A DNA stretch of 64,000 nucleotides from Actinopolyspora alba (GTDB lineage: Bacteria > Actinomycetota > Actinomycetes > Mycobacteriales > Pseudonocardiaceae). Below, in pieces: positions 2,961 to 55,604 of this stretch. How positions within the stretch are numbered: position 1 is the stretch's first letter; the number at the start of each line of letters is the position of its first letter. The DNA lies in the NCBI RefSeq assembly GCF_900112765.1, contig NZ_FOMZ01000001.1:248001-312000 (forward strand), written 5' to 3'. Position numbers and translations under genes: made by a program. The notes below the pieces were generated by a model. That model was not told where the DNA came from, searched no databases, and worked only from the letters and a program-made list of their open reading frames with translations.

Positions 2961-3302
2961 ATGCAAGAAAGAGAGATTCGCGCCTTCGTGACCATCGCCG
3001 ACGCCAGGCGTATGGACCGTGCCGCACAACAGCTCGGATATTCGCAACCGGCAATCAGTTACCAGATCAAGTGCTTGGAGAAGTCGCTGCGCACGAAGCT
3101 CTTCGAACGAACCCCGGAAGGGGTGAGGCTCACCGACTCCGGGAAGCGGATCCTCCCGTCCGCGCGGGAGATGTTGGCACTCGTGGAGCGCATGAAGCGG
3201 ATCTCCGAGGTCGGCGGGAACTCAGGGGCCAACGGGGCGGCGTCCGAGCTCGACCACCTGCTGAGCGGAGGGCACGGGGCACCTTCGAACGCCCCACGGT
3301 AA
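2961..3302 (+). CDS. Small LysR-type HTH protein without an effector-binding domain
   Basis: The 113-aa product begins MQEREIRAFVTIADARRMDRAAQQLGYSQPAISYQ (shown here in overlapping parts: helix 1 'RAFVTIADA', recognition helix 'GYSQPAISYQIKCLE'). This is a clean LysR winged-helix domain with its linker helix, spanning residues 1-75. The protein stops where a normal ~300-aa LysR would begin its co-inducer domain; the tail is low-complexity G/A/S. ATG 2961 was chosen because it matches the LysR N-terminus; longer in-frame starts add unrelated residues. It sits at the cluster edge, convergent with the DUF3995 gene. It may be a stand-alone DNA-binding regulator or antagonist of full-length LysR proteins. 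Calling it a truncated relic is the alternative. Confidence 0.7.
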   Translation: MQEREIRAFVTIADARRMDRAAQQLGYSQPAISYQIKCLEKSLRTKLFERTPEGVRLTDSGKRILPSAREMLALVERMKRISEVGGNSGANGAASELDHLLSGGHGAPSNAPR

Positions 3303-3321
3303 CGCGCACGGTGGGGTCCGC

Positions 3322-3352
3322 GGCCGGGAACCGACCCCTGGGGCTCCCGGCC
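3322..3352. terminator. Hairpin between convergent genes
   Basis: An 8-bp perfect stem (GGCCGGGA / TCCCGGCC) with a 15-nt loop lies between the small LysR gene (+) and the last gene of the minus-strand operon. It may serve both strands. There is no T-run. Confidence 0.5.
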
Positions 3353-3393
3353 CCGTCCCCCGACACTTCCTCGCACGACCGTGGCCGGAAAGA

Positions 3394-3891
3394 TCAGCGG
3401 CGACGGGTGAATCCCACCATCGCCGATCCCAACAACACTCCCCAGACCAGAAACCACATGTCCCAGACGTAGAGATGTCCACGCAGCGCGGTCCAGTCCA
3501 CTTCTGGCGGAGCGGGAATGATGCCGATCTCGAGTGCCGCGGCGGCACCGACGAGCACTCCTCCGTACCCCACGAGCACGGCCGTTCCCGACCAACCGCA
3601 CACCAGCAACAACCAGCGGGGGAACACGCTCCCCCACGGTTGAACGAGTGCCAGCGCGAACAGCGCACCCCCGAGTTTGACCAGCACGGTGACGGCGAGC
3701 ACGAACATCATAACCGGGTTCCGCTCGACCACGGCCCGCGCGAGCCGACCTCCCACCGTCTCGAGGGCGAACGTGCCGCCCAATGTCCAGTAGAGATTGA
3801 CGATCGCGAACAGCAGCCCGCACCAGAACGCGGCCCAGGCGCTCCGGAGTTGCCCACGGCTCGGGTCTGCTCGGGTGGCGGACGAAGACAT
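3394..3891 (-). CDS. DUF3995-like four-helix membrane protein
   Basis: This 165-aa hydrophobic protein has four predicted membrane helices: around FWCGLLFAIVNLYWTLGG, VMMFVLAVTVLVKLGGALFALA, RWLLLVCGWSGTAVLVGYGGVL and YVWDMWFLVWGVLLGSAM. The W-rich first helix and the VWDMWF segment before the last helix resemble DUF3995 proteins. Several ATG/GTG codons are stacked at the start; ATG 3891 has AGGAAGG at good spacing. It is the last gene of the long minus-strand NRPS operon and may contribute to self-protection or export. That role is only contextual, since DUF3995 proteins are also common outside clusters. Confidence 0.6.
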   Translation of the reverse strand: MSSSATRADPSRGQLRSAWAAFWCGLLFAIVNLYWTLGGTFALETVGGRLARAVVERNPVMMFVLAVTVLVKLGGALFALALVQPWGSVFPRWLLLVCGWSGTAVLVGYGGVLVGAAAALEIGIIPAPPEVDWTALRGHLYVWDMWFLVWGVLLGSAMVGFTRRR

Positions 3892-3946
3892 CATCACCTT
3901 CCTGGAACAGCCAGGTGTGTTCGGGTGTCACGGGGGAGGAGCCGGG

Positions 3947-4513
3947 TCACGTCCGGTCTCCCCGGGTTCGGACGCGTCGGGACAGCGCGGCGAGCATGTC
4001 CCGACGGATGAGCCCGCTGCCTGCCCGGATCATCAGCCAGTAGAGCGCGAACTTCCGCCGGGTGGCCTGATCGGTGGCGTACACACGGGTCTCGGTGGAC
4101 ACAAGAGTTCCGGACCCCTGGCTACGCAGTTCGAAGTTCATCACGACCTTGGTCCACCCCGGTTCGGAGAAGGAGCGGAATTCCGCGTCGTCCCGCGGAG
4201 CTCGCTCGGGTCGCACGGGGCGCGCCCCGGTGTAACGAGCCACATCCGCGTGCAGGATCTCGCGCGGTGGATCCTCGATCAGTCGTCGCGGCCCGATCGA
4301 GTCCAGGACGAGGAGCTCACCGACCTCGCCCGCACCGTGTCGCCAGGCGGACGGCCCACCGCGCGCACGCAACAACAGGCCCGTGACGCGGAGATCGGCC
4401 ATGCGCAGCGCGAGCAGCGTTTCGAAGGTTTCCACCTTCCCGGCCGGAACCCACTTCCGATGACGTTCGCGGTAATCGTACTCGGGCATGACTCGTTCGA
4501 GCAGTTCGTTCAT
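3947..4513 (-). CDS. Hypothetical protein, SRPBCC-like
   Basis: This gene encodes 188 aa with no signal or membrane segment. The N-terminal half is helical (MPEYDYRERHRKWVPAG...ETLLALRMADLRVTG). The C-terminal half alternates strands (TKVVMNFELRSQ, GTLVSTETRVYATDQATRRKFALYWLMIR) and ends GSGLIRRDMLAAL. The strand-rich body and the long C-terminal helix recall SRPBCC/START-like hypothetical proteins of actinomycetes, but I cannot name a ligand. The ATG lies eight bases after the glutamate mutase E stop, so it is very likely co-transcribed and possibly coupled. A role in handling the hydrophobic intermediate is speculation. Confidence 0.5.
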   Translation of the reverse strand: MNELLERVMPEYDYRERHRKWVPAGKVETFETLLALRMADLRVTGLLLRARGGPSAWRHGAGEVGELLVLDSIGPRRLIEDPPREILHADVARYTGARPVRPERAPRDDAEFRSFSEPGWTKVVMNFELRSQGSGTLVSTETRVYATDQATRRKFALYWLMIRAGSGLIRRDMLAALSRRVRTRGDRT

Positions 4514-4520: not shown

Positions 4521-5819
4521 TCAGATCTCCCCGGGCTCGATTCCCTCGGGTTTCACGCACGCTTCGTGTGATGCGCGTCGGTCGTATTTTCGCTGAACGT
4601 AGTAGAGCGAAGCCAGCAGATCCGAACCGGTGATCTCACGGGTATCCGCTACCTGCCCGATCGGCATCGCACCGACCGAGGCCCAGCGCAAACGACCGGT
4701 CTCGTCCACATAACTGCGAGCGCGACCCGGATTGTCCGGATGCAGGCAGTACGGTACGTCGAGCAGTCCGCGCTCGAAGGCACGCCCCAACGCGGTTCCC
4801 GGATCCTCGCCGAGTTCGAGTACCGCTTCGATGAGCGCACCGGCTTCCTCGTAGATCCCGGTTTCCCGCCGAATACCGCTCGTCCCGGCATTCCCCACCT
4901 CGGCGGCGGCAGCGGCGGCCAGCCGGAGCGATCGGACGTTCTCGGCGATGGTGGGAATCCGGTGCGCCTCCGCGGGCGTCTTCACGAGCAGTCTTCTGGC
5001 ACCGCCGCGGACGGCCAGTTCCGCCGCGTCGCGGAGCAACGCCTCGGCTGCGAGGCGTTCGAAGGGGTATACCCCCATGTAGGCATAGACGACCGTGTGC
5101 CAGTCGATGTCGGAGAGGAACTCCTGTCCCAACCGACGAAGTGCCGTCAGCGCTTCCAGATCCTGCTCGGGATGTGTCTGCTGTGCATAGCTCAGTGAAA
5201 CGCTGGTAAGCCCGTGCGCACGGAAGAAAATCCCCTCGAGGACCGTGAGGGCCAGCAGCAGACTGGGCGGGCACAACTGCCCCAGCATGCAGCCGCCGAA
5301 GCTCTCCACGTGCGGGAGCACACCGCGTCCCGACGTCGCCGCGAAACGTTCACAGGCTCTGGCCCACGCCTCGATGGAATCCTCGAGCGGTACTCTGCTG
5401 TACGGCAGACAGTAGGAGACCGGCCCTCCCTCACTGGCATCCAGCCCCAGATCGGAGATGGCGGCGAAAATGTCTTCCGGCAGTGGGCAACCGTGCCTTA
5501 CCTGTACCGGGAACTCACTGCTCCATACCCCTTCGAGAACACTCGCCGTCACCTCGTGGGGATAAGTGACGATCGGGAAACCGTTCAACGACACGCCGTC
5601 GTCCAGTGCACGGCGCAACGCCTGGTAATCACCGGTTCTGGTGTAGCTGTCCAGCGTGATCGTTCCAACGGTCGGTACACCCGACCGCCGGACCTCGATC
5701 AGTCCCCGTCGCATCGTCTCCGGTGCGCTGAACCCCATTCGGGGCTGCACGACCAGATCGCCGGAACGGTAGGCGGAATCGACGTATCCCCCGAAGGAGG
5801 CGGACGGATAGGTCAGCAC
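4521..5819 (-). CDS. glmE: Glutamate mutase (methylaspartate mutase) catalytic subunit E
   Basis: Together with the S subunit this adenosylcobalamin enzyme interconverts L-glutamate and (2S,3S)-3-methylaspartate. The 432-aa product carries the family N-terminus YPSASFGGYVDSAYRSGDLVVQPRMGF (split: FGGYVDSAY and VVQPRMGF), the TIALDSYTR-like TITLDSYTRTGDY, NGFPIVTYPHE, and the substrate-channel motif FGGCMLGQLCPPSLLLALTVLEG in its C-terminal half. GTG 5819 overlaps the S-subunit stop and is preceded by a GGAG/GGGG stretch. Upstream in-frame codons give non-family sequence. The operon position next to an NRPS whose last A domain has an Asp-type code says the mutase supplies 3-methylaspartate as a building block, as in friulimicin-type clusters, rather than serving glutamate fermentation. 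Confidence 0.88.
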   Translation of the reverse strand: MLTYPSASFGGYVDSAYRSGDLVVQPRMGFSAPETMRRGLIEVRRSGVPTVGTITLDSYTRTGDYQALRRALDDGVSLNGFPIVTYPHEVTASVLEGVWSSEFPVQVRHGCPLPEDIFAAISDLGLDASEGGPVSYCLPYSRVPLEDSIEAWARACERFAATSGRGVLPHVESFGGCMLGQLCPPSLLLALTVLEGIFFRAHGLTSVSLSYAQQTHPEQDLEALTALRRLGQEFLSDIDWHTVVYAYMGVYPFERLAAEALLRDAAELAVRGGARRLLVKTPAEAHRIPTIAENVRSLRLAAAAAAEVGNAGTSGIRRETGIYEEAGALIEAVLELGEDPGTALGRAFERGLLDVPYCLHPDNPGRARSYVDETGRLRWASVGAMPIGQVADTREITGSDLLASLYYVQRKYDRRASHEACVKPEGIEPGEI

Positions 5820-6307
5820 GCCGGTCCCCTCTCCGAACGCATCGCCCCCGCCGTTGTGGTGGGCAGACTGCGGAGAAAGCTTTCGAGTTCGACGAAGTCC
5901 GAGTCGTCGGGGAACACCGCGTCGAACCCGAGCCGCACCAGTTCCCGGATACGATGCCTGTCCGAAGCACCGGCGATGCCGAGTTTTCCACCGATAACGA
6001 TCGGTATCGACCTCGACGAAGGCCGCGCGCGGAATTCGCCGATGAGATGCCTGCCGTCGGGGTAACCGTGCCCGTTGACGGTACTGATCACGACAACGTC
6101 GGGCCGCCAGTCGTCGACCGCGTCCAGCAGGGATGACGTGGGAACGCACGCCCCCAGGTTGCGTACCCGGATACCGGCCTGTTCCAGAGCCAGCTGCAGG
6201 AAAACCAGATTCCAGGTGTGCGCGTCCGAGGGCACGCTGGACAGCAGAACGCGCATCACCCCGTCCTCGGCGGACCCAGTTGGACGCACGGGTCCGGAAC
6301 CGGTCAT
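5813..6307 (-). CDS. glmS: Glutamate mutase cobalamin-binding subunit S
   Basis: This is a 164-aa B12-binding (Rossmann-like) protein. The cobalamin motif appears as SDAHTWNLVFLQ near residues 27-38, where Asp28-x-His30 gives the lower axial histidine; the usual glycine of DxHxxG is Asn here. It is followed by the SLLDAV helix region and the GGKLGI loop that lines the nucleotide tail. ATG 6307 overlaps the ketoreductase stop (ATGA). A second Met 17 residues later (MRVLLSSVPSDAH) is a plausible alternative start that would match shorter homologues. Its stop overlaps the start of the E subunit, so the two subunits are likely made in equal amounts. Confidence 0.85.
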   Translation of the reverse strand: MTGSGPVRPTGSAEDGVMRVLLSSVPSDAHTWNLVFLQLALEQAGIRVRNLGACVPTSSLLDAVDDWRPDVVVISTVNGHGYPDGRHLIGEFRARPSSRSIPIVIGGKLGIAGASDRHRIRELVRLGFDAVFPDDSDFVELESFLRSLPTTTAGAMRSERGPAC

Positions 6308-7044
6308 AACGTGATGCCTCCGTCGATGCGCAGCACCTGTCCGGTTATGTAGCTCGCCCGCTCGGAGACCAGATAGGACACCAGCTCGGCCACCTCGTAC
6401 GGCTCCCCGACCCGGCCCAGCGGGACCGATTCGAGCGTCTTGGCCCGGGCTTTCTCCGAGACTTCGGCGGTCATATCGGTATCGATGAAGCCGGGAGCCA
6501 CCACGTTGACCCGGATACCGAACGAGGCCACTTCCTTTGCCAGGGATCTGCTCATGCCGTTGATCCCCGCCTTGGCAGCGGAATAGTTCGTCTGTGTCGG
6601 GCTGGCGCTCACTCCCGCGACCGAGGAAACGTTCACGATCGCGCCGCCCTTGCGTTTCATCAGACCGAATACCATGGATCTGCAGAAGTGGAACGTTCCG
6701 TTCAGATTGGTGTCCAACACGGTGTTCCACTCTTCGATTCCCATTCGCACCATCGGGTTGTCCCGAACCACTCCGGCACAGTTCACCAAAGTGTCGAACG
6801 GACCGATTTCCCGCTCGGCCTCACCGAGAAACGCCCCTACCGCATCCGCGTCGGTGACGTCACATGCCGCGTGGTGGACCCGCGCACCGGAACGGCTCAA
6901 CGATTCGGCCACGTCCCGCGCCGACTCGGATTCCGAGCGGTAGCAGAACGCGATGTCGAATCCCTCGTCGGCCAGCCGCTCGGCGACGGCTCTGCCGATT
7001 CCGCGTGACGCGCCGGTCACCACCGCTCGCCTTCTGCCGGACAT
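6304..7044 (-). CDS. FabG-type 3-oxoacyl-ACP reductase (ketoreductase)
   Basis: This 246-aa short-chain dehydrogenase has the NADP motif TGASRGIG (11-17), NCAG (88-91) and the catalytic Ser140/141, Tyr154 and Lys158 in VSSVAG and NYSAAKAG. The length and the C-terminus ITGQVLRIDGG are those of FabG. It would reduce the 3-oxoacyl-ACP formed by the type II KS/CLF pairs even though it is encoded in the NRPS operon, far from them. It is the only ketoreductase in the cluster. The last leucine codon is TTA (before TGA), so translation could depend on the rare bldA-type tRNA. A 211-bp gap separates it from mbtH, leaving room for its own promoter. Confidence 0.85.
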   Translation of the reverse strand: MSGRRRAVVTGASRGIGRAVAERLADEGFDIAFCYRSESESARDVAESLSRSGARVHHAACDVTDADAVGAFLGEAEREIGPFDTLVNCAGVVRDNPMVRMGIEEWNTVLDTNLNGTFHFCRSMVFGLMKRKGGAIVNVSSVAGVSASPTQTNYSAAKAGINGMSRSLAKEVASFGIRVNVVAPGFIDTDMTAEVSEKARAKTLESVPLGRVGEPYEVAELVSYLVSERASYITGQVLRIDGGITL

Positions 7045-7255
7045 GACACCTACTTCCGTAATCGGAACACCACCGGCACGACGAGTCGGACCGTTCGCGC
7101 GGAGGGGTTCAGAACACCCGGTTCGACCGGAACCGTAATCGTGCGAGCGGGCGAACAGAATCCGTGTCTGACCGAATTGCAGCTTTCGGCAACGGATCGA
7201 CCGGACCAAGGGCCGCTGAACTGTTCGGCCGCTCGCACTCTTGCGTTACGGGTTC

Positions 7256-7465
7256 TCATTCCGCCATAGCCTCGATGAGGCTGCGGGGGCGCATGTCGGT
7301 CCAGTTTCGTTCGATGTAATCCAGGCAGGCGTCCCGCTCTCCGCTGTGTACGGTCGTCCAGCCGGCGGGAACCTCGATGAAGTCCGGCCAGAGTGAATGC
7401 TGCCCCTCGTCGTTGACCAGCACCAGAAAGCTTCCGTTCTCGTTGTCGAAGGGGTTGGTGCTCAT
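7256..7465 (-). CDS. mbtH: MbtH-like protein
   Basis: This 69-aa protein is a typical adenylation-domain chaperone. The hallmark residues are visible: [28 protein letters not shown], and the C-terminal [15 protein letters not shown], with the invariant tryptophans at SLWP, GWTTVH and NWTDMRP. MbtH proteins bind A domains and are needed for solubility or activity of many of them. The ATG overlaps the stop of the NRPS gene (ATGA), consistent with co-translation with its partner. Confidence 0.95.
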
Positions 7466-10400
7466 TGGTCTTCCTTTCCTGCCGACGGTTGCGTGTTCAT
7501 TTGTTCGGCCAGTACGCGGCCGATACGAGCCAGCGGTTCCGAATGAGTCATGTCGTTGTGCCTGACCTCGACGGGGTACTCGGTGACCTCGCCTGCCACG
7601 TAGGGGTGCCAGGCCACCTTGCCCGGGCCGGGACGTTCGTCAGCGGTCGCCACGAACAGGAGCGCGTCACCGGTGTAGTGGCTCGGCGTGTGCCCGCGTG
7701 CCAGCCTGGTGTTGTTCAGAAAGACCCGGTGCAACGCGCGGAGCCGATCCTCGGTGAGATCACCGAAGACACCGCCCTGTTCCCGCACCAGCCGTGCCGT
7801 TGACTCGGCGTCCAGATCCCGCTCACTCAGACCGGCCCGGTCGTATCCCGCGAGGTCGAGCATCGCGAGATAGAGTTCGGCCTCCTCGACATATCCCTCC
7901 TCCGATTCCTCGGCCGTCTTCGGGAAGCTGTCCAACATGGCCAGTAACTCGACTTCCTCGCCCTCGTTCCGCAACAAAACCGCCATCTCCTGAGCTATCA
8001 GTCCGCCGAAGGACCAGCCGAGGAGTCGGTATGGGCCGTGAGGTCGCACGGTGCGGACACGTTCGACGTAGTCATGCGCCACCTCGGTGACCGTGTCGGG
8101 AAGCGATTCCTCCCCGTCGAGGCCACGGGACTGCAGTCCGTAAATCGGCACGTCCGGTTCGAGGTGCTTCATCAGCCCCGCGTACGACCAGGCGAAACCA
8201 CTGGCCGGATGCACGCAGAACAACGGGGACCGCTCGCCGCTCGCTCGCAACGGCAGCAGCACGTCGAAACCGTCGGAGTCGTCGTCCTCGCCCAATCGAG
8301 AGGCCAGCGCGGCGACGGTGGGTGCCTCGAAGAGCGTACGCATCGCGGTACGTACCCCGAACGCCGAGCGCACCCTGGATATCAGCCTGGTGGCCAGCAA
8401 CGAGTGGCCGCCCAGTTCGAAGAAACCGTCGTGCACGCCGACCGTGGTCGTGTCCAGGACTTCGGCGAACAGTTCGCGGAGGACGCGTTCGGTCTGGTTG
8501 CGAGGTCCCTGTGCCGCCGCGGTTCCCTCGACCTCGGGGGGCGGCAGTGCCTCGCGGTCGAGTTTGCGGTTCGGTGTCGTCGGCAGCTCGTCGAGCTCGA
8601 CGAAAGCGGTGGGAACCATGTAGGTGGGCAGCACCTCGGACAACGTCCGTCGCAAGCTGGAAGGGTCGAGTTCGGCGCCGTCGCGTGTGACGACGTAGGC
8701 GACCAGACGTTGATCACCGGGACGGTCCTCGCGGACGACCGCGGCAGCCGAGGCGATTTCGGGCCGAGCGGTCAGCAACGCCTCGATCTCGCCAGGTTCC
8801 ACGCGGAAACCGCGCAGTTTTACCTGATCATCGACACGCCGCACGAACGCCAGCTGCCCGTCGGAGCGCCACCGCACGATGTCGCCGCTGCGGTACATGC
8901 GTTCGCCGGGGGGTCCGAACGGATTCGCCACGAACCTGCTCGCCGTCACACCGGGACGGTGAAGATACCCGCGCGCGAGACCCGTACCCGCGATGTAGAG
9001 TTCGCCGGCCACACCGATCTCGACCGGCAGCAGGTTCTCGTCGAGAACGTAGACCCGGGTGTTGTCCAACGGTTCGCCGATCGGCAGCGGCCCGGAGGGA
9101 ATCCGCTGTTCCGGTTCCACCCGGTACTCGGTGCAGTTGACCGTCGTTTCAGTGGGACCGTACATGTTGAACACCGTCACGCCGGGGTTGCGCTCCCGCC
9201 ACTCGTCGACACGTTCGCCGAGCAGCAGCTCACCACCGAGCAGCAGCTCCCCGTTCGGGGAGAACTCCTCGGGAAGCGTGTTCAGCACCGGCAGATGGCT
9301 CGGGGTTCCCTTCAGGAAGGTGGGCGGATGGTCGCGAAGCATCTCCACTGTCCGCGGATCGGAATCGTCGAGTCCGATCACGTGCACGGTTCCACCCACG
9401 GTGAGCGGCACGAACATGGCCGTCACGCTCAGATCGAACGACACCGGCGAATGCAACGGAACGGCACCGCGAACCCCTTGATAGTCGTTGCCTCCGAAAA
9501 CCAGGTAGTCGGACAGCGAACGGTGCTCGACCACGACCCCTTTGGGACGGCCGGTGGACCCCGATGTGTAGATGACGTAGGCGGGGTTCGAGAACGCCGG
9601 TGCGGTCGGTTCGGCCTCGGGCAACTCGGCGGTTTCCTCGAACAGGACCGTACGCTCAGCAGCCGTCTCGACGCCGGATCGACGCAGCTCCGCGAGCACA
9701 TCACCGTCGGTGAGCAACAGCTCGGGGGCGGCGTCGGCGAGCATGAACCCGATGCGGTCGGCCGGGTAGTCCGGATCCACGGGCAGGTAGGCACCGCCCG
9801 CTTCGAGTACCGCCAGCAACGCCACCACCATCTCGACCGAACGCGGTAGTGCCACGGCGACGAACCGTTCCGGTCCGACGCCGAAGGCGGCCAACCGCCG
9901 TGCGAGACGACTCACGCGTTCCGCCAGTTCCGCGTAGGACAGTTCGCCTCGTACGGTACGGACGGCGGGAGCGTCCGGGGTTGTGTGCGCCTGTGCGGCC
10001 AACATCTCGGGCAGTGTTCGGTCGGCGCCCGCTGTGGAAGTGTCGTTCCACTCCCCGAGCACCAGCTCACGCCGCTCGCCACGCAACAGTTCCACCGAAC
10101 CGATGCGCCGATCGGGATCGGCGAGGAAGGACTCCAGCATGTGAAGCAGCCCGTCCACCATGCGTAGCACCGTGCTCCGGTCGTAGAGGTCGGTGCTGTA
10201 CTGCAGGTCACCGATGATTCCCGCGGCCTCGCCGTCCGAGTCGCGCCGCTCGGCCAGGTTCAACGACAGGTCGAACTTGGCCGCACCGGGATCGAGCGGA
10301 AGCGTTTCCACATCGAGTCCGTCCATCTCCGCGTCCACGGTCTCGTGATTGCGGAAGGAGAGCATGACCTGGAACAACGGGTGTCGGGAAAGCGCTCGGG

Positions 10401-39893: not shown

Positions 39894-40099
39894 CCGGCTC
39901 CAGGCGACGAAAACGGGAAACCGGGACGATGTCCCCGCGTCATTCGCCTGCGGGATTCACGCTGTCGAACTTCGTCGTCGAGAACCGGTTCCCCATGGCG
40001 CGGAAGCCGGGCACGCTCGACCTCCCAGCGGGATCGGGAGTCCTGGGTGTTCGGGAGCGGCCCAGCGCACTCGGAACGCTGGACGAACGTGGCGCGGGG

Positions 40100-41359: not shown

Positions 41360-41372
41360 CTTCTCTCTCCCT

Positions 41373-43729: not shown

Positions 43730-43934
43730 CACAACTCCAGTCGCCGGTCGGGGCGCCGCCGGTCCACTCCGCCGGTCCACTCCGAGCCGAGTGACCGCAC
43801 GTGGTTCGTACGTAGGGGCGGCACGAAGTCTAGGTAAGCGCTCCGTTCCCCGACTCCGGAATTGCCGGTACCTGCAACAGGCGCCGAACCCGCCGCGGGA
43901 GGAGCGGAAAGTGATTCGGCGGGAAGCGCGCCCG

Positions 43935-44549: not shown

Positions 44550-44579
44550 GTTGTCCTCGCAGTTCACATCCCGTGTCGG

Positions 44580-45043: not shown

Positions 45044-45445
45044 CTACTCCTCCCGGTACGACAACCGCATGTTGGCCACGGCGAGCTCGGCGCGGTGGAC
45101 CGAGGCGGAGACCGACCAGGGTTCGTCCCGTCCGGCCGGTTCGGTCCAGCGCAGCTCGATCGTCAGGTGATCACCGGGGTACACCGCGGCGCCGAACTTG
45201 GCGCTGCGTACTCCGCTCAGCCTCACGCGCCGTCCCGGCGGACCCCCCTGTACCGCCGTCCGGTGCACGAGGTCGAGAACGCACACCCCGGGGAAGACGG
45301 GGAAACCGGGGTAGTGTCCGGCGAAGACCGGTTCCTCGGGCGTGACCTCGACCTCCGCGCGCACCGTTCGGTCGGGCCCCACGGGCTCGTCCAACTCCAC
45401 CGGGGCCGTCACGGGCGAGACCACGGCCCTGATCGTGCTGTTCAC
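45044..45445 (-). CDS. Hot-dog dehydratase subunit carrying the catalytic His
   Basis: The 133-aa hot-dog protein has the FabZ-type loop FAGHYPGFPVFPGV with His44, but the following helix reads VLDLVHRTA with Asp58 where FabZ has Glu. It is the complement of the 153-aa neighbour, which has Glu but no His. GTG 45445 has GGGAG upstream. The pair most simply forms a heterodimer with one complete His/Glu site that dehydrates 3-hydroxyacyl-ACP to enoyl-ACP. Paired dehydratases of this kind (ApeI/ApeP) are known from Gram-negative aryl polyene systems. Confidence 0.75.
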   Translation of the reverse strand: MNSTIRAVVSPVTAPVELDEPVGPDRTVRAEVEVTPEEPVFAGHYPGFPVFPGVCVLDLVHRTAVQGGPPGRRVRLSGVRSAKFGAAVYPGDHLTIELRWTEPAGRDEPWSVSASVHRAELAVANMRLSYREE

Positions 45446-47464: not shown

Positions 47465-48399
47465 CGGTACTCCTTCGCCGACTCCAGGACGACACCCGCG
47501 CTCGCGTCGTCCGCGTCACTTCCGGCTACGGCATGGACCGATCCGTGCTCTCCCGAGTCGAACCAGCCCACCGCGGCCACGCACTGCAGCACACCGAGCG
47601 CTCCCGAAGCCGCCCCCCAGGTGGCGGAAAGGTCGGTTCGCGCCACTCCCGTCAACAACCGCTCCGGTAGCGATTCCCCGTCCGTTTCCGGCACCAACCA
47701 CATGCCGGGCCGCGTTCGGACGTTGCCGCTCAGCAGTTCGAGGCATTCGGACACACCCGATGAACGAACACAGCTCACCAGTTCCGCGCGCGTCCGCGCG
47801 CCGCGCTCCCGCGCCGCCTCGGCGGATTCCAGGACCATCGCGGCCGCACCGTCGAGGCACCGTCGCTTTCCCGTGAAGGCGCGCACCGTTTCGTTGTCCG
47901 GTTCCACTCCGAGCACCAGGACCCGATCGGCTCGTTCGGCCCGCAGCAGCAGACTTGCCCACCGCACGGCGTCCACTCCGGAGGTGGGGCCGTTGCACAG
48001 CGTCAGGTTCGGGCCGCGCAGTCCGAACCTGATAGCTATCTCGGAGGCGATCACGTTGCTGGACGCGTTCGCGGTGTCCATCGGGCTGACCCCACGCGTG
48101 GTCTCGTCCGCTATGGTCCGAGCCACCCGGCAGACAGTGTCCAGATTCCCGAGGTTCGAACTGACCACCACCGCTGTGGCCGGATCGGCCCTGCCGTCCT
48201 CGCCGAGCAGCTCGGCGTCCCGCAGCGTCAGCAGCGCGGCGGCCAATCCCAGGGTCGTCGCGCGGTCCTTGTAGCGCAGTCCCTTCCTGCCGAGTACGGC
48301 GGCCGGATCGACTCGCTCGCCGGTCGGCTGCCGGGTGAGCAGATCGGTCGCTTCCGAAGCCCCCGGCAGCATCGGAAACGTTCCCGTGATCACGTTCAT
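47461..48399 (-). CDS. KS-beta / chain-length-factor-like protein (short)
   Basis: At 312 aa this is shorter than a usual CLF (~400). The thiolase fold is visible (VVVSSNLGNLDT; MDTANASSNVIASEIAIRFGLRGPN; RCLDGAAAMVLESAEAARERGAR). At the nucleophile position the strand reads TLCNGPTSG, which aligns Pro with the KS cysteine (the Cys present is three residues early). Both catalytic histidines are missing. ATG 48399 overlaps the stop of the active KS gene (ATGA), so the two are probable heterodimer partners. Confidence 0.75.
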   Translation of the reverse strand: MNVITGTFPMLPGASEATDLLTRQPTGERVDPAAVLGRKGLRYKDRATTLGLAAALLTLRDAELLGEDGRADPATAVVVSSNLGNLDTVCRVARTIADETTRGVSPMDTANASSNVIASEIAIRFGLRGPNLTLCNGPTSGVDAVRWASLLLRAERADRVLVLGVEPDNETVRAFTGKRRCLDGAAAMVLESAEAARERGARTRAELVSCVRSSGVSECLELLSGNVRTRPGMWLVPETDGESLPERLLTGVARTDLSATWGAASGALGVLQCVAAVGWFDSGEHGSVHAVAGSDADDASAGVVLESAKEYR

Positions 48400-49550
48400 G
48401 GGTGCGACACCTCCAGGACCGCCACGGCGTTCACTCCGCCGAAGCCGAAGGCGTGCACTTGCGCCAACGACATCGATTCGGTGACCGGCCGCTCGCTCAC
48501 CAGCCGGATCCCCTCGGCTTCCGGAGTCGGCGTGGTCAGCCCCGTGATCGGTGGGACCACTCCCGTTTCCAGGGAACGCACCGCCGCGACCAGACCGAGC
48601 AGTCCGGCGGAGCCGGAAGTGTGTCCGGTCATCGACTTGATGCCGGTTACCAGCGGTCGACCGACGCTGTTCCCGAAGACTCGGTGCAGCGACTCGGCCT
48701 CCACCTTGTCGTTCATCGGCGTACCGGTGGCGTGCAGCATCACCATGTCCACATCGGATGCTTCGACTGCCGCTCGCCGGTGCGCCTGGCGAATGCTCTC
48801 CGAGACGCCGTCCGGATCCGGCGCGGTGACGTGGTGCGCGTCGCAGTTGATCCCCACCGAACGCAACGACGCTCTGGGACCGGCATCGACCGAGTCGGAT
48901 GCGCGCAGCACCACCGCGGCCGCGCCCTCACCCATTACGGCCCCCTTACGATCCAGGTCGAACGGGCGCGGCCCGTCGGTCGGCACCTGTTGGAACCTGT
49001 CGGTGAGGCCGAACATGCTCTCGGTGATCACGTCTGCCCCCGCCACGACGACGGTTTCGGTCTCGCCCAGTTCGATCAGATCGGTTCCCAGCGCGAGCGC
49101 GTACAACGAAGCCGAACAGGCACCGGAGAGGGTGTGCGTGTCGGCCGCTCCCAGCCGTCGGCGGAGTGCTGTGCCGAAGTGCAGGTGCTCGGCCCGGAAT
49201 TCCGCCTCGTCACGCCACCAGAGCTCGGCCGATCGCAGCTCGCGGAGGCCGGTTCCGACCAACACCGGGACCTCGGTCGGGCCGGTGTACGAATCGTCGA
49301 GGTCGATTCCGGCATCGGCGAGGGCTTCCTCGACGGCCCGCAGCAGGAATCCGGTCGCGCGTCGCGGCTCGTCCACTCCCGGCTCGGGACGATCGTCTAT
49401 CTCGAACAACCGCTGCGCGTTGTATCTGGTCCGATCGAATCCACGCATCTCCGCGAGGGCGCCCCGCCCCGAACGGAGATTCTCGAAAACGGTGTCGACA
49501 TCGGCACCGATACCGGCCACCGCGCCGAGACCGGTTATTCCCACCGTCAT
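48396..49550 (-). CDS. Type II ketosynthase (KS-alpha, first copy)
   Basis: The 384-aa KS has Cys145 in LSGACSASLYA, His in MLHATGTPMND and His in KSMTGHTSGSAG, a complete triad. The loop HAFGFGGVNAV is intact. It is shorter than, and different in sequence from, the other two KS copies, with HATGT in place of HGTGT. ATG 49550 has GGAAGGAG upstream. It is the first gene of the minus-strand block 49550-40100 and is divergent from the ACP gene. Confidence 0.88.
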   Translation of the reverse strand: MTVGITGLGAVAGIGADVDTVFENLRSGRGALAEMRGFDRTRYNAQRLFEIDDRPEPGVDEPRRATGFLLRAVEEALADAGIDLDDSYTGPTEVPVLVGTGLRELRSAELWWRDEAEFRAEHLHFGTALRRRLGAADTHTLSGACSASLYALALGTDLIELGETETVVVAGADVITESMFGLTDRFQQVPTDGPRPFDLDRKGAVMGEGAAAVVLRASDSVDAGPRASLRSVGINCDAHHVTAPDPDGVSESIRQAHRRAAVEASDVDMVMLHATGTPMNDKVEAESLHRVFGNSVGRPLVTGIKSMTGHTSGSAGLLGLVAAVRSLETGVVPPITGLTTPTPEAEGIRLVSERPVTESMSLAQVHAFGFGGVNAVAVLEVSHP

Positions 49551-50008
49551 ACGGCCACTCCTTCCACCCTGTCGTGCCGAAATCCCGGAAGGCACGACGA
49601 GCGTGGTTCACAAAAGCACGCGTACTCGTTTCCGGAGCCGTATCGCACGAACCGGAGAATCACCCGAAAAGGGTGTCACGTCCAGCGCTCGTTCCGTTTG
49701 CGGCAACGAGCGTTGGTGTTCGGCCCGACAACGTGCTACGAGAACTCGGCCGGTTCGGCCTCCACGATGCTCGAAGCGCCGAGTCCGGCGGACGAGCAGT
49801 CCCCGGAACCGACCCGGCCACCGGTACGGACGGGGGAGAACCTTGCAGGTTCCGGCAGCCGCGGGAAAACGGACATGGTGGAATCCGTCTTCGGACGGTA
49901 GAACAGGGATCACACGATTCTTGCGGAATCCCGCCCGGTTTCTCGATGAGGTCCAGTATTCCGCCCCGGCACGACAAGCGGTTCGAACAGAACAGGAGGC
50001 CGAGAAAC
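49551..50008. promoter_or_regulatory. Divergent intergenic region between KS and ACP genes
   Basis: This 458-bp gap holds no credible gene. It should contain the promoter of the large KS operon (minus) and that of the ACP (plus). I see no obvious long palindrome. Confidence 0.45.
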
Positions 50009-50257
50009 ATGACGACTTCGGTGAACGAGCGTCACGCTCGGATCAAGGAACTCGTATGCGAGGTCCTCGAACTCGACCAGGAGGAAGTAACCGACACCAG
50101 CCTGTTCATCGAGGACCACGAGGCGGACTCGCTGCGGGCCATAGAGATCCTGGCCTCCCTCGAAAAGGAATTCGGCATAACCATCGACCAGTCCGAGCTG
50201 CCGCAACTGGTGAACCTGGAAAGCGTCTACACCGTTGTGGACCGCGAGATGGGGTGA
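50009..50257 (+). CDS. Acyl carrier protein of the type II PKS
   Basis: This 82-aa ACP has the phosphopantetheine serine (Ser41) in EADSLRAIEILASLEKEFGI, the canonical DSL motif followed by helix II. AGGAGG lies eight bases before ATG 50009. It is the only free-standing ACP in the window and the only cluster gene of the right arm on the plus strand, sitting between two minus-strand operons with its own terminator. It should carry the growing aryl-polyene chain for all three KS pairs and deliver it to the starter C domain of the NRPS. Confidence 0.93.
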   Translation: MTTSVNERHARIKELVCEVLELDQEEVTDTSLFIEDHEADSLRAIEILASLEKEFGITIDQSELPQLVNLESVYTVVDREMG

Positions 50258-50345: not shown

Positions 50346-51047
50346 TCAACCACACCCCCCGGCGTGCCCGTAGTCCAGGGTCCACACGGCTCTCCCCGAC
50401 TCGTCGTCAGCCGTGCTCTCGGACGACACTCGGGGAGAGCGGACCTCCTCGACGAACTCCTCCAAGCGGTCCACTCCCCAGAAGCGGGCGGAACCGGTGA
50501 CGAAGAACGGCACTCCGAAGACCTCCTCGGCACCGACTTCCAGCAGGCACCGTACCCCGCGCTCGCGCAACCCGGGATCGTCCGAGGCGGTGGCCAGCTC
50601 GTCCGGATCCAGCCCCAGCGATTCGCCGATCTCGGCCACCGTCGAGCGATCGCAGATGTCGCGTCCCTGTTCCCATCGAGCTCGATACGCCGCCGCCACG
50701 TACTCGGCTCCGCGCCCGTGATCGTGGGCACGCAGGTACGCCAGATGCGGCACCTCCCACACCGGCTGCCTGTCCAGCGGCCACTTCATCGCAGTACCGG
50801 ATTCCCGGGTGCGGCGAGTGACGTCGCGCAGGATGTAGAGGTTCTTCGCACGGGACATCTCCGTGTAGACGACCGAACCGCCCATGGCGCGCAACGCACT
50901 CTCGGTGGACTCGTCCGGCTCCCACGTGGGTATCCATCGCAGTCCGTGAACCAGGTCCCGGTGACGCTCGACGAACCGCAGGTAGGAAAGCCACGAGTAC
51001 GGACTCCGCAGCGAAAAGAAGAACTTCGCACGTGGTTCCTCCGGCAT
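50346..51047 (-). CDS. DsbA/HCCA-isomerase-like thioredoxin-fold protein (copy 1)
   Basis: This 233-aa protein begins AKFFFSLRSPYSWLSYLRF, where the S-x-x-SPYS pattern replaces CxxC, as in 2-hydroxychromene-2-carboxylate isomerases. It has PVWEVPHLAYLRAHDHG and the cis-Pro loop EVFGVPFFVTGSARFWG. It is a clear paralogue of the protein at 43935-44549, sharing the VPHLAYL and YRARWE segments, and has a longer, low-complexity tail. GAGGAAC precedes ATG 51047. It is the last gene of the KS-beta/PAL/CoA-ligase operon. Isomerisation of a polyene double bond is the favoured role; simple redox activity is excluded by the missing cysteines. Confidence 0.72.
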   Translation of the reverse strand: MPEEPRAKFFFSLRSPYSWLSYLRFVERHRDLVHGLRWIPTWEPDESTESALRAMGGSVVYTEMSRAKNLYILRDVTRRTRESGTAMKWPLDRQPVWEVPHLAYLRAHDHGRGAEYVAAAYRARWEQGRDICDRSTVAEIGESLGLDPDELATASDDPGLRERGVRCLLEVGAEEVFGVPFFVTGSARFWGVDRLEEFVEEVRSPRVSSESTADDESGRAVWTLDYGHAGGCG

Positions 51048-51056: not shown

Positions 51057-52871
51057 TCACTCTCCGAGCGGGGTGACCACCGACGGGGCGACGTGGTCCC
51101 GGTACAGCGCCTCGACGAGCTCGGCGCGGTTGTCGACGACGGCGGTCGCGTTCACGTACCCCTTGTCGGTGATCTCGCCCGCCTCGATTCGGGGCGGACC
51201 GGCCAGCGGCAGGAACCGTCGCACTCGCGCGGAGGGGGCGGAATCCGCGTTGGCCGCTCGCAGGGCCTCGGCCAGCGTCTCTCGCAGCTTCTCGTGTTCG
51301 AGCAGCTCGGCGATGTCCGCGGCGGAGGTTCCCAACAACTCATTGGCCGGCTCCAGGTTGATCCAGCCGAGTGCCGCCACGTACGGCCGATTCGTACCGA
51401 GCAGTACGACATCGGTGATGAGGGCGGTCGCGTCCAACAACGACCGGCGCACCCGCGCCGTGGATATCCATGTGGCATTGCTCAGCTTGAAGTTCTCGGC
51501 CGCCCTGCCCTCGAACACCAGCCCTCGGGCGGGGACGGTCTCGTCGACGAACCGAGTGAGGTCACCGGTGCGGTAGTACCCCTCGTCGTCGAGGTCCAGC
51601 GATTCACCACCGAGATAGCCCGGGGTGACGGAGGGACCGTGCACCCGGGTTTCCAGCCCCGTCCCGTGCGGTACGAGCTTGACCGAAACGCCGGGAAGCG
51701 GAATGCCGATCCCGGACTCGGCCGACCCGTGTGTCGAGGTGGCCGCCGGTCCCGTTTCGGTCGCTCCCCAGGAGGAGACCACGGCTATGTCGCGCCCGCT
51801 GGTGGCGCGTGCGATCCTCGCCAGACGGGTGCGGAGTTCCCCCGGCATGTCCGCGCCGGCGTAGAGCAGGATCCTCGCTTCGGAGAAGATCCGCTCACCG
51901 AGCGCGGGGTCGCGCTCCACGCGATCGGCCAACATGGCGTACCCGGAAGGCACGTTCACGCATATGGTGGGAGGAACCTCCCGTAGGGCCTCGATCGTGC
52001 GCTCGAAGTCCGCATCGCTCGGTTTGCCGTCGTCCAGATGGATAGTGCCGCCGTTGTAGAGCGCCAAATGGAGATTGTGATTGCCGCCGAAGGTGTGGCT
52101 CCAGGGCAGCCAATCGGTGAGTACCGGTGGCTCATCCGCCAGGAACGGCCAGATCTGCCGCAGCATCTGCTGGTTGGCGCACAACATCCGATGAGTGTTG
52201 CGCACCCCCTTCGGAGTGCCGGTGGATCCGGAGGTGAAAAGGATCTTGGCCACGCTCTCCGGAGTGACTGCCCGACGCGCCCGCCGCACCGCCTCGGAGG
52301 GTTCGGTGGCGCACAGTTCACCGTAGGTGAGCTGGCCATCGCCGGGGGAACGCGAAACGACGGGAACACAGCTTCCCGCTGTGGCGGAGACCACCGTACG
52401 AAGCGCTTGCCGATAGGTCTCACCGTCCTCGGCGTACACCGCCCCGGGGGTGACGAGTTCCGTCATGGCGCGCAACCGCTGATGATCACCGGAGCGCAGC
52501 GAGTAGGCGACACTGACGGGGACAACCGGGATGCCGACGGTGTAACAGGCGAGCGTGATCATCAGATGTTCGAGCGAGTTGCCGGACAGCACCATCATCG
52601 GGCGCGTGCCGTCCAGCCCCCGAGCGAGCAACGAGGCGGCGATGCGCAGGGCGCGGGCCGAGCTGTCGGCATAGCTCGACGAACACCATCGCCCCGCGGA
52701 GTCCCGTTCGGCAGCCAGGACCCGATCGGGAGTGTGCTCCGCCCAGTACCGGAGTACCTCGCCGAGTGAGTCGGGGTGTGCGGCCAGTGGTTCCGCGGCA
52801 CGCAGTACCCGGGTGCCGTCCGGCCGTTCCTCGTCCAGGACGTCGTGGGACGCAAAGGTCGCGAGAGTCAT
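51057..52871 (-). CDS. Cinnamate/ferulate-type acyl-CoA ligase
   Basis: The 604-aa adenylate-forming enzyme has the P-loop FTSGSTGTPKGV, SWGATETGPA (A5-type motif), YYRTGDLTRF (A7) and a C-terminal EITDKGYVN. The N-terminal layout (LGEVLRYWAEHTPDRVLAAERD) and the TDKG ending are those of feruloyl-CoA synthetases rather than 4-coumarate ligases or NRPS A domains. It would activate an aryl-propenoate as CoA thioester. Its ATG shares a base with the PAL stop (TGATG), so translation is coupled and the substrate is most simply the PAL product, cinnamate. Confidence 0.85.
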   Translation of the reverse strand: MTLATFASHDVLDEERPDGTRVLRAAEPLAAHPDSLGEVLRYWAEHTPDRVLAAERDSAGRWCSSSYADSSARALRIAASLLARGLDGTRPMMVLSGNSLEHLMITLACYTVGIPVVPVSVAYSLRSGDHQRLRAMTELVTPGAVYAEDGETYRQALRTVVSATAGSCVPVVSRSPGDGQLTYGELCATEPSEAVRRARRAVTPESVAKILFTSGSTGTPKGVRNTHRMLCANQQMLRQIWPFLADEPPVLTDWLPWSHTFGGNHNLHLALYNGGTIHLDDGKPSDADFERTIEALREVPPTICVNVPSGYAMLADRVERDPALGERIFSEARILLYAGADMPGELRTRLARIARATSGRDIAVVSSWGATETGPAATSTHGSAESGIGIPLPGVSVKLVPHGTGLETRVHGPSVTPGYLGGESLDLDDEGYYRTGDLTRFVDETVPARGLVFEGRAAENFKLSNATWISTARVRRSLLDATALITDVVLLGTNRPYVAALGWINLEPANELLGTSAADIAELLEHEKLRETLAEALRAANADSAPSARVRRFLPLAGPPRIEAGEITDKGYVNATAVVDNRAELVEALYRDHVAPSVVTPLGE

Positions 52872-54484
52872 CACGCATCTCCTTCGAACGCGGCGGTGCG
52901 CAGCTGCCCGGAAGCGATCAGCGAGGTCACTGCTTCGATGTCGCCGTCCAACGGCCTGTCCCGCTCGAGGAAATCCGATACACCGCGGATCCGCTCGTAG
53001 ACCGCGCGGGTGGCGTTGGTGAGCACCTCGGTTCCGCGAAGATCCACGGCCTGGCACAACGCGATCAGGTGGATCGCGGTGACCTGCTGGGCGAGCTCCA
53101 CCACCGAACGGGCGTCGCGCGCGGCGATGGTGCCCATGCTGACCTTGTCCTGGTTGTGGGCCTCGGTGGACCGCGAGAACGAAGTCGCGGGATTCGTCAA
53201 CTTGAGTGCCTCAGCGGTGAGGGCGGAAGCCGTGAGCTGCATCCCCTTGAACCCGTGACACAACCCGGCCTCGTAGTCCTCGGCTTCCGTCCTGGGCGCG
53301 AGGTTCGGGGTCAGACCGTTGTTGAACTTCTCGTCGACGATCAATTCGAGCTGCCGGTCCAGCATGTCGGCGACGCTGGCGACAGCCGTCTTCAACGAGT
53401 CCATGGCCTGTCCGACATGGCCGCCGTAGAAATTGCCCCCGTTACGGACGACCGAGTGCTGCACGTCGAACAGCGGGTTGTCGTTGGAGGAGTTCACCTC
53501 GACCGAGAGCCACTTGTTCACCCAGTCGACCGTGTCCCGCAGTACTCCGGCGACGTGCGGACAGCAACGGACCGAGTAGCGGTCCTGGATCGGGCGTTCC
53601 AGAACCCGAAAGTCCACGTCCGGAGCCGCTTCGGACTGCCCTGCCAGATACTCCGCCTCGTCGACCAGCATGTTCCGGATGGTCTCGGCGCTGGTGATCA
53701 TCCCCGGGTACGGCTTCTGCTCGGCCAGGAAACCGGCGAAGTGTCCGGGGTTTCCGAGCAGCACCTGGGAAGCGAGCGCGGTGCACACCTCGGCCGCGTG
53801 GGCCAGCTGCTCGGCGTCGTGCGCGGCCAGAACAGCGTAGCCGGACATGAACGAAGTGCCGTTGACCAGCGCCAGCCCCTCCTTCGGCTCCAGCGATATC
53901 GGCTCCCGCCCGACTTCGCGCAGCGCCTGCCACGCTGGTTTGCTCTCTTCGCGGTGCCACACGGTCGACTCGCCGGTCAGCATTCCCGCCAGATAGGCCA
54001 ACGGAACCAGATCCCCACTGGCACCCACTGACCCCCGTTCCGGAATCCGCGGCAGGATCCGCTCGTTGATGCAGTCCACCAGCAACTCGACCAGTTCCGG
54101 GCGTACGCCCGACCATCCCCTCGCCAGGCAGTTCGCCCGCACGATCATGGTGGCCCTGGTCACATCGTGTGTCGCGTGTGGTCCGATACCGCAGGAGAGG
54201 AAACGGACCAGGCTGTGCTGCAGCGAACCGGACTTTCGTTTGGAGATCTGACGAGTGTTGCTGTCACCGAAACCCGAGGTGACTCCGTAGATGGGTGCTC
54301 CGGTGTCGATGAGCTGGTGTTTGAATTCGTCGGATCCCGCGATCCGCTGCCGGGCCCCCTCGGAAAGTTCCACTGTCCCGGCCCGCGGGTCCCGGGCGAG
54401 GCGGACGATGTCTTCGAGTGCCACGTCGTGACCGTCCAGCGTCATACTGCCGACGTGCTGGCACGGAACGAGCGATTGTGTCAT
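52871..54484 (-). CDS. Aromatic amino acid ammonia-lyase (PAL-like, MIO family)
   Basis: This 537-aa enzyme of the HAL/PAL family carries the MIO-forming triad Ala155-Ser156-Gly157 in GSVGASGDLVPLAYL. The lid tyrosine is in APIYGVTSGFGD (Tyr66), and NSSNDNPLFD follows later. The selectivity pair after LQHSLV is Phe95-Leu96, as in plant PAL; histidine lyases have Ser-His there and tyrosine lyases usually His-Leu. It should convert L-Phe to trans-cinnamate and ammonia. No hut genes are nearby. An MIO aminomutase giving beta-Phe is the main alternative, but the coupled CoA ligase favours the lyase. ATG 54484 has AGGGG upstream. Confidence 0.85.
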   Translation of the reverse strand: MTQSLVPCQHVGSMTLDGHDVALEDIVRLARDPRAGTVELSEGARQRIAGSDEFKHQLIDTGAPIYGVTSGFGDSNTRQISKRKSGSLQHSLVRFLSCGIGPHATHDVTRATMIVRANCLARGWSGVRPELVELLVDCINERILPRIPERGSVGASGDLVPLAYLAGMLTGESTVWHREESKPAWQALREVGREPISLEPKEGLALVNGTSFMSGYAVLAAHDAEQLAHAAEVCTALASQVLLGNPGHFAGFLAEQKPYPGMITSAETIRNMLVDEAEYLAGQSEAAPDVDFRVLERPIQDRYSVRCCPHVAGVLRDTVDWVNKWLSVEVNSSNDNPLFDVQHSVVRNGGNFYGGHVGQAMDSLKTAVASVADMLDRQLELIVDEKFNNGLTPNLAPRTEAEDYEAGLCHGFKGMQLTASALTAEALKLTNPATSFSRSTEAHNQDKVSMGTIAARDARSVVELAQQVTAIHLIALCQAVDLRGTEVLTNATRAVYERIRGVSDFLERDRPLDGDIEAVTSLIASGQLRTAAFEGDA

Positions 54485-54536
54485 GCGCGCCCCTGCGTAA
54501 CTGTTCGTTCTCCGTGAAGAAGTTCTTTCCGGGACA

Positions 54537-55604
54537 TCAGTGGATACGGAACAATCCGCAGCCGACTTGCCCATCGGGATCCACCGAAGTGACGAGGAGA
54601 ATGTTTCCGCCCGGAACGGGATCGCGTCTTGCCCGGACGAATCCGCCCAGCAGTTGGAAACAGCCGGATGCCCCATCGGTATCGCCGATCAGATGATCGA
54701 CGGCGAATGTCCTGGGCTGGTCGCGGATCGTGCTGCTGACGGCGTGCAACTCCTCGATCCGCGTGGCTCCCTCCGGAGCGGACACGGCGACGGCCCACAC
54801 GTCCTCGGCGACCAGCCCGGAACGACGCAGTGCCCTCGTGATCCGGTGGGCCAGCACCTCACCCGCGGACTCCACCGACGTCGCCGTTCCGAACTCGAGC
54901 GCGAGGATCCCGATCAGGTTCGAGCGACCGTGTCGCCGGGCGGACTCCTCGGATTCGGTCAGAAAGACGCACGCGCCCTCACCGAGCGGTGACCGACGTT
55001 GCCCGTGAGCCTGCTCGACCAGACGACAGCGCTGCTGGTTGAGATCCTCGATCGCGCCTGCCAGGACGACGTCCGCTCGACCACGCTCGTGCATCCGTCG
55101 CGTGTAGTTGAGAGCCGAGAGCCCGGTGAGCCTGCCCGTGGTCACGGTCGAGTTGAGTCCCTTGAGACCGTAGCGGATCGCACACTGCGAACTCGGATAG
55201 TTCATCGCGCTGCCGGGCAGCAGCTTGGGATCCACATGGTACGGCGCCGTTCCGGTCAGTGACTCCCGCATGATGCTCATCGAGCGATCGGCCGTCATCA
55301 TGGCACCGCCCAGCACGATGCCACGTCGCTCGGCGACGGTGCTTTCGGTGTCGTACTCGTCGAGCAGCAGTCCGACGGTCCCCATCGCCAGGGCAGCGGG
55401 CCTGCCCAGCCTGTCGATGTTGACGGAGTCGTCGCCGAGCACGGAACGCACGTCGAAATTCGGGACCCGCGCCACCCCGGGAACGGGCCGACCGTCATCG
55501 GAATCAATTGTGGACAGCGCACACCGTTCGTCCCCGATTCCCGACTCGAACGCGGAGAAGCCGATACCGTACGAGGAAATCACAGAAAACCCGGAGATAA
55601 TCAC
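54537..55604 (-). CDS. KS-beta / chain-length-factor-like protein (third copy)
   Basis: The 355-aa thiolase-fold protein resembles the KS-beta at 41373-42491: RGIVLGGAMMTADRS, ESLTGTAPYHVDPKLLPGSAMNYPSSQCAIRYGLKG match segments there. The nucleophile strand reads TVTTGRLTG with Arg in place of Cys. No His triad motifs remain. No ATG precedes the domain; GTG 55604 (VIISGFSVISSYG) fits the KS N-terminus and has GGGCGG upstream. It heads the KS-beta/PAL/CoA-ligase/isomerase operon. Its KS-alpha partner is not adjacent; the KS at 40100-41359 is the likeliest by elimination. Confidence 0.78.
   Translation of the reverse strand: MIISGFSVISSYGIGFSAFESGIGDERCALSTIDSDDGRPVPGVARVPNFDVRSVLGDDSVNIDRLGRPAALAMGTVGLLLDEYDTESTVAERRGIVLGGAMMTADRSMSIMRESLTGTAPYHVDPKLLPGSAMNYPSSQCAIRYGLKGLNSTVTTGRLTGLSALNYTRRMHERGRADVVLAGAIEDLNQQRCRLVEQAHGQRRSPLGEGACVFLTESEESARRHGRSNLIGILALEFGTATSVESAGEVLAHRITRALRRSGLVAEDVWAVAVSAPEGATRIEELHAVSSTIRDQPRTFAVDHLIGDTDGASGCFQLLGGFVRARRDPVPGGNILLVTSVDPDGQVGCGLFRIH

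Follow-up and report, generated by a model that had tools for sequence, protein, structure and literature searches.

A putative phenylalanine-primed type II polyene synthase coupled to a cinnamoyl-peptide assembly line in Actinopolyspora alba

A biosynthetic island of about 54 kb is present in the genome of Actinopolyspora alba, within a stretch of 64,000 nucleotides (contig NZ_FOMZ01000001.1, positions 248,001 to 312,000) that is referred to here as the window, and to which all coordinates refer, with the strand given as + or −. The pathways to cinnamoyl-containing peptides are thought to derive their aromatic ring from acetate. The island probably represents a highly reducing type II polyketide synthase (PKS) and nonribosomal peptide synthetase (NRPS) cluster of the cinnamoyl-containing nonribosomal peptide (CCNP) type that has been re-primed with phenylalanine. 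Phenylalanine priming of the polyene, as proposed in the original prediction for this locus, is supported by the selectivity pair of a putative phenylalanine ammonia-lyase (PAL), by the kinship of the adjoining ligase with feruloyl-CoA synthases, and by a pair of ketosynthase (KS) subunits, KSa1 and KSb3, found only with PAL and ligase; a second, polyketide-derived ring may nevertheless be formed, as the case of epoxinnamide (below) suggests.

In the predicted pathway, whose reactions, chain length, double-bond geometry and residue identities are inferred from the sequence, phenylalanine would be converted to cinnamate by PAL, and cinnamate to a thioester of CoA or of the acyl carrier protein (ACP) by the ligase. 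The first condensation or condensations on this aryl starter would be carried out by KSa1/KSb3 and further extension by KSa2/KSb1 and KSa3/KSb2, with the ketoreductase (KR) and the dehydratases DH1 and DH2 generating an E-polyene in which Z double bonds would be set by the isomerase ISO2, and perhaps by ISO1 too. The aryl-polyenoyl group would then be passed from the ACP to residue 1 via the starter condensation (C) domain of NRPS1, and assembly of the peptide on six modules, the first three of which are followed by epimerization (E) domains, would end with release by a thioesterase (TE).

The genes named in the original prediction (a PAL-like lyase, a ligase, three KS-alpha and three KS-beta genes, one KR, a dehydratase pair, two isomerases, one ACP and a six-module NRPS with a starter C domain) were all recovered where they had been placed, on the basis of Pfam and NCBIfam scans for the gene calls and a KS alignment for the KS residues. 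The island also contains genes for a glutamate mutase S subunit, an ABC exporter ATPase, an MbtH-like protein, LAL and LuxR-type regulators, a hotdog-type protein and a hydrolase, which had not been listed.

The lyase (52871–54484, −; Lyase_aromatic, 534 bits) carries the Ala-Ser-Gly triad of the 4-methylideneimidazol-5-one (MIO) enzymes, and in an alignment its selectivity positions are F-L, as in the PAL of PDB entry 1w27; it is predicted to be a PAL. We take the F-L pair to mean phenylalanine specificity, the 1w27 row being the sole check. A comparison of 102 distinct MIO sequences contained 11 lyases with an adjoining ligase, the window lyase included, which fall in at least three places in the tree and are not independent draws; all 11 have F-L (nine) or F-M (two). 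The F-L pair is found in 10 of the 91 sequences without a ligase alongside, several of the 91 having short flanks, and Y-H or F-H occurs in 74 of the 102.

The aryl-CoA ligase (51057–52871, −) scores 641 bits, under the cut-off of 777, against NF009232/PRK12582, which we took to be a feruloyl-CoA synthase model, an assumption then backed by full-length identities of 40-41% to plasmid proteins annotated as feruloyl-CoA synthase. PAL has such a ligase as its neighbour in this genus, Amycolatopsis, Actinomadura, Solirubrobacterales and Herbidospora. Among 80 named PAL-like loci, a match to the ligase reaches 40% identity or more in seven, two of which have a KSa1-like KS at 50% or more. PAL matches at E <= 1e-140 are found in three of the ten genomes of the genus listed (G000, G097 and G177) and in 26 of 297 genomes of the family. 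The ligase is found at E <= 1e-100 in two of 394 class-level genomes, its own and G386, with no PAL on the 6.8-kb contig of the latter.

The six KS genes fall into three pairs. All three KS-alpha proteins retain the active-site Cys and both His residues, which are absent from all three KS-beta proteins. KSa1 (40100–41452, −), with its Cys-His-His kept, has as its best PDB relative 6kxd ('Ketosynthase'), and KSb3 (54537–55847, −), which has lost the Cys and His, adjoins PAL. In trees built on tblastn segments (52 KS-alpha and 46 KS-beta), the KSa1 clade and the KSb3 clade each contain seven sequences, every one from a PAL and ligase cluster (support 1.0 for both). The members are this genus (three), G213 and G259, presumably Amycolatopsis, and the Actinomadura loci L010 and L011. 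Because both clades come solely from PAL and ligase clusters, KSa1 and KSb3 are the candidate aryl-priming pair. KSa2 (42488–43780, −) and its partner type KSb1 (41373–42683, −) cluster with the second pair of G213 and G259 (support 0.981 and 0.983), and KSa3 (48396–49595, −) and the short, chain-length-factor (CLF)-like KSb2 (47461–48399, −) cluster with the second pair of the CCNP clusters.

The likening of this PKS to aryl-polyene gene sets in the original prediction is too simple, as it is largely the CCNP block of skyllamycin and kitacinnamycin type, with its isomerase. KSa3/KSb2, an alpha/beta hydrolase (46550–47464, −), a hotdog-type protein (45489–46553, −; PF13279), the FabA-like dehydratases DH1 (44580–45041, −) and DH2 (45044–45445, −), a KR of FabG/KR type (6304–7209, −; 52-62% identical to the KR of CCNP-type and related clusters) and the isomerase recur in 16 other records, although not all genes are found in each and contig ends cut some. 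These records are carriers of the hotdog protein, namely four Streptomyces plasmid records (L087, L089/L143, L141 and L142), out of seven with a hotdog match, and all 12 genomes other than the organism's own with such a match (13 of 394 class-level genomes matched). The DNA compared spans 6-80 kb per record, and a gene absent from the short ones (G380, 5.7 kb; G632, 20 kb) may lie outside. The hotdog protein is matched by segments of 38-59% identity in all 16, the records having been picked by this gene or its neighbours, and a sequence search (E up to 0.01) yielded no relative of it with a solved structure. The hotdog and hydrolase genes (45489-47464) are adjacent and are conserved together with KSa3/KSb2 in CCNP-type clusters. 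The ACP (50009–50254, +; PF00550, 6.2e-13) has a DSL motif and is 70% identical to the first ACP of L089; the other PKS genes are on the opposite strand.

As far as gene order and the accessible text of PMC6510318 tell, rather than alignment to named CCNP clusters, the hotdog-bearing gene set is the CCNP set, and the KS, KR, dehydratase, ACP and isomerase of a highly reducing type II PKS together with an NRPS, by which CCNP clusters are described there, are all found in the island. By counting, the genes of L089 can be matched in order to the numbering kcn4-15, with the KR as kcn14. Neither PAL nor this ligase is present in any of the 16 other CCNP-block records within their 6-80 kb, against all three clusters of this genus; the ligase query gives matches of only 25-32% in the DNA of the 16. 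The PKS therefore appears, from these comparisons, to join two lineages: a CCNP block (KSa3/KSb2, hydrolase, hotdog protein, dehydratases and ISO2) and the PAL-linked KSa1/KSb3.

With the majority of its PKS genes of CCNP type, the island might instead direct an ordinary acetate-primed chain with a polyketide ring, PAL and ligase being used for beta-phenylalanine or a plain cinnamoyl unit. MIO enzymes can indeed be aminomutases, and AdmH and a tyrosine aminomutase are among the matches of the lyase. Such an arrangement is nevertheless quite improbable, given that a ligase adjoins PAL in several lineages and that KSa1/KSb3 tracks PAL and ligase over three genera; the lack of a recognised phenylalanine-type code among the six adenylation (A) domains points the same way, weakly, since modules 1, 3 and 5 carry no assignment. 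Use of the MIO enzyme for beta-phenylalanine as in andrimid biosynthesis was set aside on the same points.

Several observations weigh against phenylalanine priming of a CCNP-type PKS. The lyase falls under all NCBIfam cut-offs, and its best model is a tyrosine ammonia-lyase (BagA/FevW), a ranking that points the other way from the selectivity pair. A tyrosine-specific enzyme, which would give the product a 4-hydroxyphenyl head, is very doubtful, however, as the score is 648 bits against a cut-off of 1000 and the selectivity pair is F-L, not the Y-H or F-H of most MIO sequences compared. PAL and ligase do not always imply this PKS, because the Amycolatopsis loci L007 and L008 have both without KS genes of these types in 20-35 kb. 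In the Actinomadura loci the PAL module is paired with type I KS and acyltransferase (AT) genes, and no NRPS was found in the 21.6 kb tested. KSa1 and KSb3 lie 13 kb apart in the window, whereas they are adjacent in the Amycolatopsis and Actinomadura loci. A single ACP was found, whereas several Streptomyces-type CCNP clusters have two. Finally, the absence of a putative ring-closing block, described next, is shared by 8 of the 16 CCNP records without PAL, within the DNA fetched.

Eight of the 16 CCNP records contain this block of three small genes, one of them annotated as DsrE family, and three of the 16 contain a phytoene-desaturase-like oxidase. The window lacks the block, and a search of the whole genomes of A. 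alba and its two cluster-bearing relatives (G000, G177 and G097) gave no match to its second gene, which was found in both controls, one of them the query's own record. The original prediction that no phytoene-dehydrogenase-like enzyme is encoded was borne out: the L143 oxidase has no homologue in the window (E up to 0.01), Pfam scans of the cluster genes name no such enzyme, and the three genomes give weak partial matches only (25-46%). G213 has an oxidase homologue (58%) about 0.8 Mb from its PAL.

The three-gene block presumably corresponds to Kcn17-18-19, a complex reported to close the ring (PMC9321520). The hotdog protein and hydrolase were also considered as parts of the ring-closing trio and rejected, as the gene order of L089 set against the kcn numbering places them, by counting, at kcn8 and kcn9; the block with the DsrE member is the more likely trio. 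Its absence favours a ring derived from phenylalanine but is not decisive, because half of the records without PAL lack the block as well in the DNA fetched and because the epoxinnamide cluster reportedly has no homologues of Kcn17-19 or YssX, yet its product contains a benzene ring (PMC9321520). The DsrE-type block is accordingly not a firm mark of a CCNP cluster.

Two isomerase-like proteins are encoded. ISO2 (50346–51047, −), which resembles DsbA and 2-hydroxychromene-2-carboxylate isomerase, is 40-53% identical to the isomerases of CCNP-type and related clusters and is the predicted polyene isomerase. In an isomerase alignment from which loci L144-L151, including the distant homologues L147 and L148, were omitted, the motif SP[YF]S is found at a conserved site in all sequences outside the genus except L090 (SPYN). 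ISO2 has SPYS at this site, and the divergent DsbA-like ISO1 (43935–44567, −) has NPYC in all three species, with most other motifs kept. Among the clusters compared, ISO1 is found solely in this genus; its target may be a different bond, or it may support ISO2.

It is conceivable, though rather unlikely, that both routes to a ring are used, in a reading that overlaps with the one preferred here. The chain would be primed with phenylalanine, and the isomerised polyene would in addition undergo 6-pi electrocyclisation to a second benzene ring. This closure would be spontaneous or catalysed by an enzyme different from the three-gene block, and the acyl group could then be, for instance, of 2-styryl-cinnamoyl (stilbene) type. 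Retention of the CCNP block in three species, with both isomerases and the second KS pair, is consistent with this idea, as is the ring of epoxinnamide. Conversely, the three-gene block is missing from the cluster and its second gene from the genome, no phytoene-desaturase-like oxidase lies in the cluster, and no other aromatase candidate was recognised; L088 and L090, moreover, have the isomerase without hotdog protein, hydrolase or KSa3/KSb2, suggesting that isomerases can serve where the remainder of the block is missing. The full product class that would result, styryl-cinnamoyl (stilbenoid) peptides with a phenylalanine-derived end phenyl and a second ring closed through isomerase-driven 6-pi chemistry, from a type II PKS in which one KS/CLF pair is dedicated to aryl priming, is unlikely.

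The polyenoyl chain of the preferred, phenylalanine-primed pathway would be delivered to an NRPS of six modules. NRPS1 (22335–31559, −) contains modules 1-2, each consisting of a C, an A, a thiolation (T) and an E domain, and NRPS2 (7462–22401, −) contains modules 3-6 (C-A-T-E, C-A-T, C-A-T and C-A-T-TE); an MbtH-like protein is encoded alongside (7256–7465, −; PF03621, 3.4e-27). The first C domain, which is of the starter type seen in CCNP clusters, forms a group (support 0.998) with its N-terminal counterpart in L088, the one reference domain in the tree. A-domain codes were extracted by motif from our own alignment and interpreted through code tables, by which module 2 is presumably Ser-like, module 4 Val-like and module 6 Asx-like; modules 1, 3 and 5 received no assignment. 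Proteins of the SbnA (33594–34673, +; TIGR03945, 379 bits) and SbnB (34696–35712, +; TIGR03944, 386 bits) families, both over their cut-offs, predict a supply of 2,3-diaminopropionate (Dap). Similarly, a glutamate (methylaspartate) mutase E subunit (4521–5810, start approximate, −; PF06368, 2.2e-86; TIGR01503, 166 bits, under the cut-off of 390) and the B12-binding S subunit upstream of it (5813–6256, −; PF02310, 1.2e-15), in a frame that differs from the long ORF, predict 3-methylaspartate. The latter is probably the residue of module 6, and Dap is probably incorporated by one of the modules without an assignment.

The limits of the island (2291–55965) are near those first suggested (2,961-55,604) and were set by blastn against a congener (G165, locus L215) that represents the empty site; they are placed there because the flanks matching window positions 1-2290 and 55966-60364 lie only about 135 bp apart in that genome. 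Two further species of the genus (G177 and G097) have the whole cluster in identical gene order, the compared proteins showing 80-98% identity except for one regulator (73-74%), and this synteny, together with the absence of the block in the congener, indicates that the genes are grouped by more than chance. The remaining genes encode a DrrA-like ABC exporter ATPase (31734–32717, +), an ABC-2 membrane protein (32714–33505, +), a LuxR/TrmB-type regulator (35774–37027, −), a LAL (large LuxR) regulator (37245–39893, −) and a conserved 188-aa protein (3947–4513, −) that has no Pfam or NCBIfam match and is 93% identical in G177 and G097. A DUF3995 protein (3394-3897) is encoded at the island edge, and two DUF3995 genes likewise adjoin the CCNP-type cluster of L143. 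In another genome (G134), the site (L216, G134:C15:312001-324000) retains the LAL regulator region (window 37040-39908, 91%) and shorter pieces between 2724 and 5186, and looks like a copy of the cluster that has decayed or lost parts by deletion.

Several other loci share the priming genes. G213, G259, L010 and L011 have PAL, ligase and a KSa1/KSb3-type pair, and G213 and G259 also share KSa2/KSb1, KR, ACP and SbnA/B, G213 with a stand-alone C domain. They differ in that isomerase, hotdog protein, hydrolase and KSa3/KSb2 are absent from the cluster DNA fetched, although isomerase homologues lie elsewhere in the genomes of G259 and L010. L011 has in addition a chalcone-synthase-like gene beside its PAL, ligase, KSa1/KSb3-type pair and type I KS/AT genes. 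Another arrangement of PAL with a type II PKS is seen on the Pseudonocardia plasmid pLS2-2 (L091; NZ_CP013856.1 51219-82751), typed as mobilizable, where an F-L-type MIO lyase neighbours genes for a carboxyl transferase, KS-alpha/beta-like proteins, an ACP, an acyltransferase and a P450.

In Gram-negative aryl polyene and flexirubin pathways, an MIO lyase likewise supplies an aryl starter to an iterative KS system, but to our knowledge no NRPS is involved. In the Gram-negative loci, which were retrieved through their similarity to PAL, nearly all MIO pairs are Y-H or F-H followed by G, as against F-L here, and their KS proteins are only 25-37% identical to KSa1 and KSa3, so that the island does not share their combination of KS and MIO types. 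The coprisamides combine 3-methylaspartate, Dap and a long alkenyl cinnamoyl group, but are heptapeptides, in contrast with the six modules here. Compared by published description (PMC6510318, in part), the CCNPs skyllamycin, WS9326A and kitacinnamycin share the highly reducing type II PKS with KS/CLF pairs, KR, dehydratase, ACP and isomerase, and a multimodular NRPS; the window adds PAL, the aryl-CoA ligase, one more KS pair (the PAL-linked one) and an altered second isomerase, and has neither the three-gene DsrE-type block nor a phytoene-desaturase-like gene. The butuanimides of the gamma-proteobacterium Teredinibacter are proposed, from genes and structures, to combine a phenylalanine- and PAL-derived starter, a CoA ligase, a type II aryl-polyene PKS and an NRPS, and disruption of btmB abolished their production (PMC13151354). 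They differ in the Gram-negative aryl-polyene type of the PKS, an andrimid-type succinimide end and an epoxyquinone head, and the accessible text of that paper mentions neither a CCNP block nor isomerases. As to the suggestion that the combination had not been described for an actinomycete, a search of titles and the beginnings of abstracts in open-licence literature, which is weak evidence of absence, yielded no description of an actinomycete CCNP-type PKS primed through PAL, the butuanimides being nearest; the idea of a phenylalanine-primed polyene peptide itself has precedent in them. The A. alba system would work like a PAL-primed polyene synthase coupled to a CCNP assembly line.

If this interpretation is correct, a lyase-ligase-KS/CLF cassette, when added to an acetate-primed cinnamoyl-peptide PKS, can re-prime it. 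Naming KSa1/KSb3 as the KS component makes priming testable in vitro, and the occurrence of the cassette in two further settings, in G213 alongside another KS pair, Dap genes and a stand-alone C domain and in Actinomadura alongside type I PKS genes, suggests that it may be a portable aryl-starter part. The change from SPYS to NPYC in ISO1 and the conserved hotdog and hydrolase genes pose further questions for CCNP biosynthesis.

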